A DNA stretch of 31,020 nt from the IMG/VR virus record IMGVR_UViG_3300037882_001642, positions 1 through 31,020 of that record. One strand, given 5' to 3'. The notes under the pieces were generated by a model, which saw nothing but the letters and a program-made list of their open reading frames with translations, was not told the DNA's origin and did no database searches. This DNA is from a virus. This document shows, piece by piece, positions 1,629 to 5,578 of this stretch (the first letter of the stretch is position 1; each line of letters starts with the position of its first letter). The translations under genes and the position numbers were made by a program.

Positions 1629-2480
1629 ATGAACAATCCCATCGTAACACGAAAAGAAATTCTTGACAAAGAAAAAGCAGAAAAAGCCCGTATTCGTGAA
1701 ATCAAACGAACGAAAGACAGGCTCAAAAAACTACAGCTTGCCAATGCCGAACACCCTGATATTGTTCAATCCATCAAGAATATCGGTCGTCTCGTTCGTC
1801 ACAAAGACCCTGTCACAGGCAAGGAAATTAAAGCCTTCGGTCGTGTGACGGTGGAGCTTCTCGCCTCAGCCGTCCCCACCACAAAACACATGGTTCAAAT
1901 CTACATCAAACGTGGCCTCATATCCAAAGCCAAGGAAATACAAACCAAACGTCACTTTGAACTATCTGTTAAGCTCATGCAAATTGAAGAACGCAAAACA
2001 CAAGACCTTACCCTTCTCAAGCGTCGCCTCAAAATCCTTGAAGAAACCACCACCAAGGAAGAGATGGAGCAAACATGGCAACAGTCCCTCCTTCATATGC
2101 ACGTCATCAATGAGCGAAAACGTAAGACTTCTTTCGCAAAAAAAATCCTTGACCGTCACGACCTTCATCAACTCGCCCTCGATACAGCCACTGATGATGT
2201 GGTACATCTTATCACAGGCAACAAAGATTATTTTGAAAACACCATTATCAGAAACTGGATTGAACGTGGCACATTTCCCAAGCCTCAAAAAATGCGAGGT
2301 AGTAGTCGCCACCTTTGGAGCAATCCCAAGGCTTTAGCTCAAATTATTCAAATGAATTTGGAAATTCAATTACAGGGGGGGGCAAAATCCCTCAAATACC
2401 CTTTTATTCGCCTTGCTTGTCAAGACCTGTTTAAGAAAACTCGTATTCCTAAAATGAGGGTTATTAACCCCTTAAAATAA
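1629..2480 (+). CDS. Putative DNA-binding protein with AlpA/MerR-like C-terminal segment, 283 aa
   Basis: The protein has a highly charged, probably coiled-coil N-terminus (residues 8-40, Lys/Glu/Arg-rich), a second long helical region (about 95-150), and a C-terminal segment IERGTFPKPQKMRGSSRHLW (about residues 219-238). That segment resembles the wing of AlpA/excisionase-type winged helix-turn-helix domains (a FPxP turn followed by R..W). A role in DNA recognition is inferred from that resemblance only. The start ATG 1629 has AGAGGA just upstream. The gene lies between a terminator (1582-1605) and a terminator-like hairpin (2526-2549), so it may be a single-gene unit. A G8 tract (2375-2382) within the last 40 codons is a possible slippage or sequencing-error site, but the frame stays open through it. 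Confidence 0.65.
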   Translation: MNNPIVTRKEILDKEKAEKARIREIKRTKDRLKKLQLANAEHPDIVQSIKNIGRLVRHKDPVTGKEIKAFGRVTVELLASAVPTTKHMVQIYIKRGLISKAKEIQTKRHFELSVKLMQIEERKTQDLTLLKRRLKILEETTTKEEMEQTWQQSLLHMHVINERKRKTSFAKKILDRHDLHQLALDTATDDVVHLITGNKDYFENTIIRNWIERGTFPKPQKMRGSSRHLWSNPKALAQIIQMNLEIQLQGGAKSLKYPFIRLACQDLFKKTRIPKMRVINPLK

Positions 2481-2628: not shown

Positions 2629-3156
2629 ATGGCTGATGAAAAGATAAACTACGCTTGTGTTGTGATACCACCCAAGAACCAAATTGCTCTCGTCATCAGG
2701 GCAATGGCTGAGGGTTTCAGTGTCAAGCAGATGCGTGAACAAGGTCTCTTAAAATCCACAGACAACCCTTTCCTTTGGGGGCAACTTGACCCACTCATCG
2801 GGCAAGAAATCGAAATGGCTCAGCGTGCTGCTGGCCAACTTAAAGCAGATGAAATTATTGACATCGTTCGTGAAGAGTTTGATGCCCCCACAATCAAGGC
2901 CAAAGTTCAAGCTCATCAATGGATAGCCGAAAAGTACACCCCTCACCGTTTTGGAAATAAACCCCTTCCCCCTCAGAAAAACGATGAAATCTCAAAAATG
3001 ACCAAGGAAGAACTGCAAGCCAAGAAGGCTGAGGTTCTAGAACGCCTACGTCAAGGAATGGAAAAAGATTTAAACACCGCCACCGACAAAGAAAAGGACA
3101 TGAGCGGTGGAAGACCTGACAGAAGAACAACTGGAAAAACTACTTCAAGAGCTTGA
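2629..3156 (+). CDS. terS: Terminase small subunit, 175 aa
   Basis: Small terminase subunits bind the phage packaging site and hand DNA to the large subunit. The assignment rests on three things. The position is directly 5' of terL with a 50-nt overlap. The length is usual for the family. The central segment is typical of TerS proteins: helical AKVQAHQWIAEKYTPHRFGN (about residues 95-114) after an N-terminal helix-turn-helix-like part (residues 20-50, including EGFSVKQMREQGLL). The C-terminus is charged and rich in Lys, Thr and Arg. The start is ATG 2629, directly after a G6-containing purine run (GAGGGGGG) acting as ribosome binding site; an in-frame TTG at 2611 lies upstream of that site. 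The overlap with terL suggests translational coupling. Confidence 0.75.
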   Translation: MADEKINYACVVIPPKNQIALVIRAMAEGFSVKQMREQGLLKSTDNPFLWGQLDPLIGQEIEMAQRAAGQLKADEIIDIVREEFDAPTIKAKVQAHQWIAEKYTPHRFGNKPLPPQKNDEISKMTKEELQAKKAEVLERLRQGMEKDLNTATDKEKDMSGGRPDRRTTGKTTSRA

Positions 3157-5578
3157 CGACATCGAAGCTCGTGAACGTCATGAGATAAATACCAACAAAA
3201 TAAACACTATGTACCCTGATGAAGGGGAATATGCTCGTGAAATGTACCCTAAGCATCTTCGCTTCTTTCATGCCCCTACAAGAGAACGTCTCTTTATCGC
3301 TGGCAACAGGTGCATTACTCCTCAGACCCTTGTAACCACTGGCTCAGGGTCTCGAATGACAGCTTTGGATGCTTTACAGTCGCACGTCGACGGGGGCTTA
3401 CAGTTACAGTCATGGGACGGAGCAATGAAATGTAGTCAAACAGTTTCTGACGCATTTCTGGTGGGGTTTGCCCCAACGTATAGGTTGCTTCTGGACAATG
3501 GGGACGTTGTCGAGTGTTCATTGGGTCACTTTCTCGCAACACCCCACGGGTTTCTGCCTCTTTCTTCAATCGTTTCAAATCATCAAACCCAGTGGACGCT
3601 TGGAAGACGAAGATATTATCAGGCCAGTTGTGATACTTACACCCATCTAGGTGATAAATTCTCTCTTCCGTCACAACTATCCGTTGCTTCATCACTTCCA
3701 TCAGCAATTTATGCTCAGTTACATACCCTTTTTTCGAAGCGTGTGGATGGAGAGGAGCAAATATCAACACTCGCCCGTCTGAATCAATGGTGCGACCGCC
3801 TTTCCACGACGGCAAGTCTTCAAGTGCTATCTCAGTGTCAGCGATTGTTCTACTCGCACACCTTATGCGATACTGTACAGCAGGAGGCGTTACATCCAAA
3901 AACTTGGCAATATCTGCAACCCGAAATCCCTTCTCATAATACGACATCACCTCAGCCGTCGTTATCTTCGTTTTTACGTCAAACTTTGGATTATTCCGAT
4001 TTAGGTTCAGAATGCGTCTCACCTGATTCACCGTCATCTTCAACGTCTCAGCTATCCCGTCAATGGTCTCGCCACTTCGTCTCAAGCGAGCCACTCTATC
4101 TTGAACGATTTTCTCGATTCGAAGGCTACGTCGTTGTACCATATTGTTCAATTCCTCTTGCTCATGGTGTTTCTATTAAAGCGATTATCCCGATGGGGGT
4201 CAATCCTATCATAGACTTTACCGTTCCCAACTACAACTGTTATTTTACAGGAAATGTATTAAATCATAATTGCGGTAAAACCGTTTCTGGTGCTTACGAA
4301 ATGGCTTTGCATTTAACAGGTCGTTATCCTCACTGGTGGGAAGGCCGTTTCTTTGACCATCCTATCAGTGCATGGGCAGCAGGAAAGACCAACGAGTCCA
4401 CCCGTGACATCATGCAGTTAGAGCTTGTAGGTCAGCTTGCCAGTGAAGATGGTAAAAAGACAGCATCAGGCACAGGCATGATACCTAAAGATTGCCTTGG
4501 TCAAATCACATGGAAGTCGGGAATTACAGGCTTGGTTGACACCATTCTTGTAAAACACATTTCAGGGGGGTGGTCAGACCTTGGTTTTAAGACCTATGCA
4601 CAAGGGCGAGATGTCTTCGAGGGGACTAAGAAACACGTTGTTTGGTTTGATGAAGAACCACCTCTAGATGTATATACTGAAGCTCTTATTCGTACTATGA
4701 CCACAGGTGGTATCATTTACACAACCTTCACCCCTTTGGAAGGGATGAGCGAAACAGTCATGCGGTTCTTACCTGACGGCGAGTTTATTGAGGGCATCAA
4801 CCATGAAAAAGACTACACTGTCGTTTCAATGACATGGGATGACGCTCCCCACATTGATGAAGCGACCAAAAATAAAATGTATGAGGTCTTGCCACCGCAT
4901 GAGAAAGAGGCTCGTTCTAAAGGCCGTCCGTCTATGGGGGCAGGTCGTGTCTATCCTGTACCTGAGTCTCGCATCATGTGTGACCCTTTTCCCATTCCAG
5001 CTTTTTGGCCACAAGCCTATGGTCTCGACGTAGGGATTACCAAAACCGCAGCCTTATGGGGGGCATGGGACAAAGAAAATGATACAGTCTACATCCACTC
5101 TGAATACTATCAAGGCGAAGAACTCCCCCTCGTTCATTCCGAAGCTATCAAAGCTCGTGGTGATTGGATGAATGGCGTGATTGACCCTGCTTCTCGTGGA
5201 AGGAACGCAGCAACAGGGGAACGTCTCCTTGACATCTACAGAAATTATGGCCTCACTCTTATGGAAGCTGACAACGCTGTTGATGCTGGCACAAACATAG
5301 TTTGGGAACGCCTCAGGACAAATAAGCTAAAATTCTTTTCCAATCTACCCAACCTCTTCAAAGAATATCGCCTCTATAGACGAGATGAGAAGATGAAGAT
5401 TATCAAGAAAGACGACCATTTAATGGATGCCCTTCGCTACCTCGTTGTATCTGGCCTCGACGTTGCCATCATGAATCATGCCAAAATTGAAGCCACAGTT
5501 TTTAATCACCTCAAGTCAGGACACCGCAAACAAAGAGACGCTGAGAACGACTATGACCCCTCTTCATATTTATCTTGA
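3107..5578 (+). CDS. terL: Terminase large subunit precursor interrupted by an intein (823 aa; 503 aa after splicing)
   Basis: TerL is the ATP-driven packaging motor and headful nuclease at the portal. The gene starts at GTG 3107, with AAAGGA 8 nt upstream, inside terS. In precursor numbering, Walker A is split: FIAGNR (63-68) is followed by an intein (69-388), and CGKT resumes at 389-392, so splicing restores AGNRCGKT. Walker B is VVWFDEE (511-517), with a coupling-type motif TTFTPLEGMSE just after. The RNase H-like nuclease has Asp641 (GLDVG), Asp693 (VIDPASRG) and Asp774 (DHLMDALRY). Because the intein splits the ATPase P-loop, activity must depend on splicing. Central residues of the intein are Ser/Gln/Leu-rich and look like the reverse image of the antisense HNH gene, not a folded domain. 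Extein length (503) fits TerL proteins of this type. Confidence 0.93.
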   Translation: MEDLTEEQLEKLLQELDDIEARERHEINTNKINTMYPDEGEYAREMYPKHLRFFHAPTRERLFIAGNRCITPQTLVTTGSGSRMTALDALQSHVDGGLQLQSWDGAMKCSQTVSDAFLVGFAPTYRLLLDNGDVVECSLGHFLATPHGFLPLSSIVSNHQTQWTLGRRRYYQASCDTYTHLGDKFSLPSQLSVASSLPSAIYAQLHTLFSKRVDGEEQISTLARLNQWCDRLSTTASLQVLSQCQRLFYSHTLCDTVQQEALHPKTWQYLQPEIPSHNTTSPQPSLSSFLRQTLDYSDLGSECVSPDSPSSSTSQLSRQWSRHFVSSEPLYLERFSRFEGYVVVPYCSIPLAHGVSIKAIIPMGVNPIIDFTVPNYNCYFTGNVLNHNCGKTVSGAYEMALHLTGRYPHWWEGRFFDHPISAWAAGKTNESTRDIMQLELVGQLASEDGKKTASGTGMIPKDCLGQITWKSGITGLVDTILVKHISGGWSDLGFKTYAQGRDVFEGTKKHVVWFDEEPPLDVYTEALIRTMTTGGIIYTTFTPLEGMSETVMRFLPDGEFIEGINHEKDYTVVSMTWDDAPHIDEATKNKMYEVLPPHEKEARSKGRPSMGAGRVYPVPESRIMCDPFPIPAFWPQAYGLDVGITKTAALWGAWDKENDTVYIHSEYYQGEELPLVHSEAIKARGDWMNGVIDPASRGRNAATGERLLDIYRNYGLTLMEADNAVDAGTNIVWERLRTNKLKFFSNLPNLFKEYRLYRRDEKMKIIKKDDHLMDALRYLVVSGLDVAIMNHAKIEATVFNHLKSGHRKQRDAENDYDPSSYLS
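3315..4142 (-). CDS. HNH homing-type endonuclease encoded antisense inside the intein, 275 aa
   Basis: This is probably the homing endonuclease that spreads the surrounding intein by cutting intein-less terL alleles. Domains, numbered from an upstream in-frame TTG (4151): two helix-turn-helix-like segments (about 26-48, SGETIDGIAETLKMTVNQVR; about 70-95, YYEKGFRVADIAKFLDVTPP), then an HNH core (116-185). The core has WKGGR (116-120), GYVTEHKLLME (142-152), IYHLDG (165-170) and HNWPDNIFVF (174-183). This is the layout of phage HNH proteins that read W-GGR, EHRLVME, HH-NG, DNRPENL. His167, Asn175 and Asn179 are kept; the residue before His167 is Tyr where His or Asp is usual. The ATG at 4142 is chosen because AAGAGG lies 11 nt upstream; the TTG is only 2 nt from it. 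The gene is wholly nested within 3311-4270 on the opposite strand. Confidence 0.85.
   Translation of the reverse strand: MVQRRSLRIEKIVQDRVARLRRSGETIDGIAETLKMTVNQVRRILNLNRNNPKFDVKTKITTAEVMSYYEKGFRVADIAKFLDVTPPAVQYRIRCASRTIADTEIALEDLPSWKGGRTIDSDGRVLIFAPLHPHASKKGYVTEHKLLMEVMKQRIVVTEERIYHLDGCKYHNWPDNIFVFQASTGFDDLKRLKKEAETRGVLRESDPMNTRQRPHCPEATYTLGQTPPEMRQKLFDYISLLRPMTVTVSPRRRATVKHPKLSFETLSQWLQGSEE
4152..4236 (-). promoter_or_regulatory. Ribosome binding site and weak promoter candidate of the antisense HNH gene
   Basis: On the minus strand, AAGAGGAA (4159-4152) precedes ATG 4142 by a usable distance. Farther upstream, TATGAT (4213-4208; 5 of 6 to the -10 consensus) lies 17 nt after TTGTAG (4236-4231; 3 of 6 to the -35). 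Both sit in DNA that encodes splicing blocks F and G on the plus strand. The binding site is well supported; the promoter is only suggestive. Confidence 0.35.

Follow-up and report, generated by a model that had tools for sequence, protein, structure and literature searches.

Can one stretch of phage DNA encode a self-splicing intein on one strand and, read from the other strand, the nuclease that would spread it? The question is raised by the large terminase gene (terL) of a 31,020-nt viral sequence (IMG/VR record IMGVR_UViG_3300037882_001642; this whole stretch is referred to as the window), for which it had been predicted from the sequence that the homing function of a terL intein has been moved to the other strand, as a gene separate from the intein. 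The relatives of the element, the selection acting on each strand and the retention of the antisense frame all support such a move at the sequence level, and the element is very probably a mobile intein with its homing endonuclease encoded as a separate gene, on the strand opposite to the intein's coding sequence.

An intein in the Walker A motif of TerL

The terL ORF (3107..5578, plus strand; 823 aa) is listed with a GTG start codon, and its true start may differ. The N-extein (3107-3310, plus strand) and the C-extein (4271-5578, plus strand; Terminase_6N, 1.6e-22) are separated by an intein of 320 aa, from Cys1 to His-Asn (3311..4270, plus strand), which interrupts the Walker A motif (AGNR|C...LNHN|CGKTV). 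The Cys1 codon occupies 3311-3313, the terminal LNHN ends at 4270 and the +1 Cys follows at 4271. Alignments place the N-terminal splicing domain at 3311..3595 (plus strand), with the block B histidine (His73) at 3527-3529, and the C-terminal splicing blocks F/G (IIDFTVPNYNCYFTGNVLNHN) at 4196..4270 (plus strand). The splicing residues of the window intein (Cys1, His73, His319-Asn320 and the +1 Cys) are conserved in 32 relatives. Further upstream, a 283-aa basic ORF (1629-2480, plus strand) precedes the terminase small subunit gene, with a sub-threshold DUF1836 match only and no PHROG match.

Taken alone, the window intein has no Pfam match, and a PF14890 search over the window record misses it as well, so relatives were needed for its detection. 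A leave-one-out HMM built from these relatives, with the window excluded, identified the intein at E=3.9e-48 among the 202 ORFs of the window, over nearly its full length. In the AlphaFold2 model both ends adopt a Hint fold (pLDDT about 80-93 and 88-93), and the middle is mostly of low confidence and disordered; in Foldseek this model matches the Ssp DnaB intein (1mi8, 4.6e-5). A group I or group II intron was rejected, as no Rfam family matched between positions 2900 and 4700 of the window at E up to 1.

Profile and model together confirm a Hint intein inside the Walker A motif of TerL, for which splicing is predicted, and its splicing blocks are intact, as had been proposed. The proposal that it carries no in-frame endonuclease also stands. 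Unlike the canonical arrangement, the middle of the intein is without amino-acid constraint in the sense frame and the HNH lies on the other strand.

An HNH gene on the opposite strand

Fully within the intein, where the original prediction had placed it, the minus strand carries an open frame of 275 codons (3315..4142; ATG at 4140-4142, stop at 3315-3317), which a leave-one-out HMM of relatives recovered at 1.6e-43 over nearly its full length. The encoded protein has a first helix-turn-helix (HTH) at aa 16-47 (4002..4097, minus strand; HTH_23, 3.4e-7), a second HTH-like segment at aa 63-95 (3858..3956, minus strand), indicated by Sigma70_r4_2, HTH_28 (below cut-off) and helices in the model, and an HNH core at aa 114-192 (3567..3803, minus strand), over which PHROG HNH families match at 1.5e-14 (phrog_10730). 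The C-terminal part of the protein overlaps the N-terminal splicing domain of the intein from the opposite strand. Foldseek with the model of the window HNH gave nothing below 1e-3, so the nuclease assignment rests on sequence profiles.

Two HTH segments and an HNH core had been predicted; all three are recognisable, but the core lacks its third catalytic His. The family pattern reads V[D/N/H]H..., HN.P.NL..[FY].SN..HL, and at these motifs (3567-3660, minus strand) the window has IYHLDG and NIFVFQASTGFDDL. Among about 138 distinct family members it alone lacks the third His, which by pattern is present in all 137 other distinct members with a recognised core (L140 is a pattern mis-hit), and it has Tyr before the first His, where nearly all other members have Asp, Asn or His. 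Because the third His and an Asp before the first His are absent, this HNH copy is probably inactive, despite its open frame, retained HTHs and promoter-like site.

Synonymous reshuffling of the intein (5000 replicates) gave a longest antisense open run of 96 codons on average and 271 at most, versus 285 observed, a length reached in 0/5000 shuffles; conversely, synonymous reshuffling of the HNH gene introduced a mean of 9.9 stops into the sense frame, versus 0 observed. A same-strand hidden HNH of the kind described for the ShiLan domain (see below) was also considered and rejected, since the same-strand frames are full of stops.

The antisense gene has its own apparent promoter and ribosome-binding site. 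In the window, a sigma-70-like promoter (TTGACC - 17 nt - TTTAAT; 4175..4203, minus strand) lies 32 nt from the ATG and within the intein reading frame; it is a consensus match only in the window, at a position conserved in relatives. A weak Shine-Dalgarno-like AGGA (4153..4156, minus strand) lies 10 nt from the ATG. A Shine-Dalgarno match of at least 5 nt was found at 51% of 92 antisense starts (63% of 71 starts in the intein-first set); the corresponding share was 4.9% for internal ATGs and 2.6% for ATGs lying antisense to the extein. Upstream of the HNH start, the best sigma-70-like site stood out against dinucleotide shuffles (P=2.5e-11) and against the opposite strand (P=1.4e-7). Of 73 dereplicated leaders, 64% have the -10 of this site 24-38 nt from the ATG (modes 26, 29 and 32 nt), and the spacer is usually 17 bp (e.g. 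TTGACA-17-TATAAT in L084). As these promoter sites lie inside intein coding sequence, the cassette would be self-contained.

Relatives with the same layout

Among named phages, tblastn with the window HNH matched eight Pectobacterium/Dickeya phages (Ymer, Abuela, Koroua, Amona, Sabo, Taid, Pappous and Setonix) and Pseudoalteromonas phage PHS3. In the Pectobacterium/Dickeya loci that were read, the match lies on the opposite strand inside a 754-aa terL ORF, annotated as a hypothetical protein or left unannotated; the PHS3 record annotates the HNH, and its terL is shortened so as not to overlap it. About 150 loci were obtained from HNH alignments against IMG/VR; a hand-written consensus HNH peptide query served only to sample named phages, and no argument depends on it. 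The window HNH by itself matched nothing when viral contigs were scanned, and two scans of genome contigs gave pattern matches and no confirmed relatives, hence no named bacterial hosts or prophages.

In the HNH-first search, 104/104 loci share the phase of the antisense HNH, and its position is near-fixed. Opposite the HNH, nearly all loci examined have a single open frame, always in the same relative phase and typically of 550-1150 aa. This frame continues through an intein that terminates in HN|[SCT], nearly always located at a P-loop; the remaining frames mostly carry many stops. A second search used splicing N-domains only, avoiding conditioning on the HNH, and found the HNH antisense in 20/20 clear relatives from the window's clade and in 93/100 loci overall (87 distinct inteins). 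Conservation of the antisense frame among relatives, which the original prediction had named as a check, is what both searches returned for nearly every relative.

The host genes include Terminase_3, Terminase_6 and SNF2-type helicases. Most HNH genes start 33-50 aa from the C-terminal end of the intein. Cys1 and the HNH 'EHRL' motif are separated by about 149-159 aa in nearly every group and by 131-135 aa in the group of the window, a few values being failures of the motif pattern. PF14890 (Intein_splicing) was detected in the inteins of 24/32 relatives and HNH_3 in the HNHs of 30/32, and a search with the intein profile recovered solved DnaB inteins at 6e-20. In the alignment of relatives, Cys1 and the C-terminal Asn are invariant and the His before Asn is nearly so.

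A two-way design common to well over a hundred phage sequences is confirmed by these sequence comparisons. It is likely that they represent a large phage family of two-way homing inteins, in which about 0.9 kb would encode both a self-splicing protein and, antisense to it, an autonomous gene for a homing endonuclease, its promoter and ribosome-binding site embedded, at near-fixed phase and position and with the HNH C-terminus overprinting the splicing domain. Constant phase and register, and these only, point to a single origin, which would have been followed by spread to several TerL families and SNF2-type helicases.

Several individual loci have additional features. L121 (2448-4949, minus strand) and L137 (2637-4907, minus strand) each have an antisense-HNH intein in the P-loop of an SNF2-type helicase, and the terL sense ORFs of L102 and L147 have an apparent second intein further downstream. 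In PHS3-type loci, the conserved HNH C-terminal region lying over the intein N-domain (e.g. the last 80 codons of 2809-3516 in PHS3, L014) is unmatched in most free-standing HNH relatives.

Selection on each strand

Differences between close pairs of sequences, which are partly related to one another, were classed as nonsynonymous (N) or synonymous (S) in the sense and antisense frames; the ratios come from relatives, the window's own nearest relatives being too diverged. In the HTH part the antisense ratio (NN/NS) was 0.21 (0.18-0.25) and the sense ratio (NN/SN) 0.98, and the HNH core gave a similar result (antisense 0.24, 0.19-0.29; sense 1.00). Where the HNH C-terminus lies over the intein N-domain, the ratios were 0.40 (0.34-0.47) antisense and 0.42 (0.35-0.52) sense. 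Blocks F/G, outside the HNH, had a sense ratio of 0.23, and the C-extein control gave 1.36 antisense and 0.17 sense. The window's clade points in the same direction, with more saturation and non-independent pairs.

By these strand ratios, the middle of the element is selected in the antisense frame only, the sense frame merely being kept stop-free, and the N-domain on both strands. The antisense constraint that per-strand analysis had been expected to reveal is thus found on the HTH part and HNH core of relatives, and the selected strand switches along the element: antisense in the HTH part and HNH core, sense in blocks F/G and both where HNH C-terminus and N-domain coincide. In PHS3-type loci, overprinting on the splicing domain is a possible origin of this C-terminal region of the HNH.

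Mobility and decay

Many pairs have higher identity in the intein than in the C-extein (e.g. intein/C-extein.915/.736,.950/.762,.956/.822,.992/.869 and.999/.876), and inteins are found in several host gene families, as expected for horizontal mobility. An occupied and an empty terL can be compared in two phages of Pseudoalteromonas marina, PHS3 (L014, KX912252.1) and AL (L269, MT002875.2). AL has no intein, and its terL C-extein is 98.7% identical in protein to that of PHS3. When the PHS3 flanks are joined at GGAG|SGKS, the AL reading frame results; within about 500 bases to either side the identity is 95-100%, and the last two codons before the junction carry two synonymous differences. The insertion is thus exact relative to a natural intein-free allele in these relatives of the window.

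In 7/100 loci found by intein, the antisense HNH is lost or broken while the intein frame is open, mostly by in-frame deletions within the HNH. The first part of the HNH gene is gone by in-frame deletion in L197/L198, L225 and L267; L226 has an intein of 173 aa and a destroyed HNH, L231 is a mini-intein that retains no more than an HNH C-terminal remnant, and L189 has a stop within the HNH. An antisense frame broken beside an open sense frame, named in advance as evidence against the antisense gene, is absent from 93/100 loci and present in these seven, which look like the loss stage of a homing cycle. Decaying elements such as L226, L231, L197, L225, L267 and L189 are a possible natural route to mini-inteins.

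Proposed homing cycle and alternatives

We infer a cycle of splicing, antisense expression, cleavage and homing. The DNA read with terL would encode the Hint splicing domain, with the middle of the intein as an unconstrained linker; TerL would be made as a precursor from which the intein splices itself out, restoring the Walker A motif. On the reverse strand, the embedded promoter and ribosome-binding site would drive separate transcription of the HTH-HNH endonuclease. This HNH would recognise the intein-free Walker A region and cut or nick it near the Walker A codons, and repair would copy the element into the cut intein-free gene. The copy in the window is probably a late member with an impaired nuclease. 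Compatible with this explanation for the family, we lean towards a dying HNH in the window element itself, i.e. an intein that still splices and homes no longer, its antisense frame being a recent relic. The missing third His, unique among about 138 distinct members, the Tyr before the first His and the existence of decayed relatives favour such a state; however, the 275-codon frame is fully open and scores strongly with the leave-one-out HMM along almost all of its length, and both HTHs and the promoter-like site are retained.

Other explanations fare less well. It is improbable that the antisense HNH is a real gene serving DNA packaging rather than homing, like HNH proteins beside terminases: most copies do lie inside terL, and the HNH of HK97 works with terminase at the cos site (PMC10448857), but the same arrangement occurs in SNF2-type helicase genes (L121, L137), the nearly identical terL of AL lacks the element, inteins are often more similar than exteins and decayed copies retain the intein and lose the HNH. 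More doubtful still is an insertion that is no intein, the HNH gene being either an open in-frame insert that terL tolerates (ShiLan-like) or one removed as an RNA intron. A sense middle evolving without amino-acid constraint and a window intein without a Pfam match of its own would fit this, but Cys1 and the C-terminal Asn are invariant and the preceding His nearly so, both ends are under purifying selection in the sense frame, Intein_splicing matches 24/32 relatives, the Hint fold and the DnaB intein match (6e-20) agree, and Rfam gave no match. Composition bias can yield long antisense ORFs, but a chance by-product of codon composition was rejected as the source of this one, and is extremely unlikely, given the shuffling results, the HNH homology (1e-14 and 1e-43) and the purifying selection on the antisense frame.

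Comparison with known systems

Split inteins whose halves flank a free-standing endonuclease gene are already known (fractured genes), so the earlier statement that known inteins are either mini-inteins or carry an in-frame endonuclease was too narrow. As in the window, a separate endonuclease gene is there associated with an intein in phage genes; unlike in the window, the host gene is divided in two and the genes do not overlap. Going by its title, a 2025 preprint by Gosselin et al. reportedly concerns actinobacteriophage inteins of non-canonical architecture. The mostly open-access literature searched contained no account of an intein with an endonuclease gene antisense within it, and the Gosselin preprint may report related cases.

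In-frame homing inteins are represented by TliVMA, with its in-frame endonuclease domain (PMC8966425), and TerL inteins near ATPase motifs are known from mycobacteriophages (PMC5050341). With these the present elements share the Hint splicing domain, insertion at TerL ATPase motifs and, by our reading, endonuclease-driven mobility, but the known endonuclease is a domain of the same polypeptide, whereas here it would be a separate opposite-strand gene with its own start signals. I-DsqI, encoded by an antisense homing endonuclease gene in a nuclear group I intron (PMC9548176), is likewise antisense to both splicing element and host gene, and is expressed separately and cuts its insertion site, as would be expected of the phage HNH. 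In that case, however, the sense product is a ribozyme, with no two overlapping protein frames, the enzyme is of the His-Cys family and the host gene is eukaryotic rDNA. The mobile ShiLan domain, a hidden out-of-frame HNH in a phage methylase (PMC11855218), resembles the window in that an HNH gene is hidden in an in-frame-open insertion of a phage gene, and it is weakly matched by the window HNH in tblastn; its HNH is on the same strand and no splicing domain was found, whereas here the HNH is antisense and accompanied by a Hint domain. PMC11855218 cites Gosselin et al. for overlapping reading frames. The Ymer genus paper mentions neither intein nor HNH (PMC11445585).

If the proposed cycle is correct, the intein outsources homing to its own antisense strand, uncoupling nuclease expression from translation of the host gene: the nuclease would come from a separate promoter, and splicing would stay tied to TerL. 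The element would also strongly exemplify sense-antisense dual coding, with the strand under selection changing along the gene, and it marks a blind spot in annotation, with terL truncated or labelled hypothetical and the HNH missed. The PHS3/AL pair makes homing directly testable. Elsewhere in the window, an ORF open at the contig end (30050-31018, minus strand), on the strand opposite to the structural genes and with no PHROG match, resembles by eye a polysaccharide lyase.
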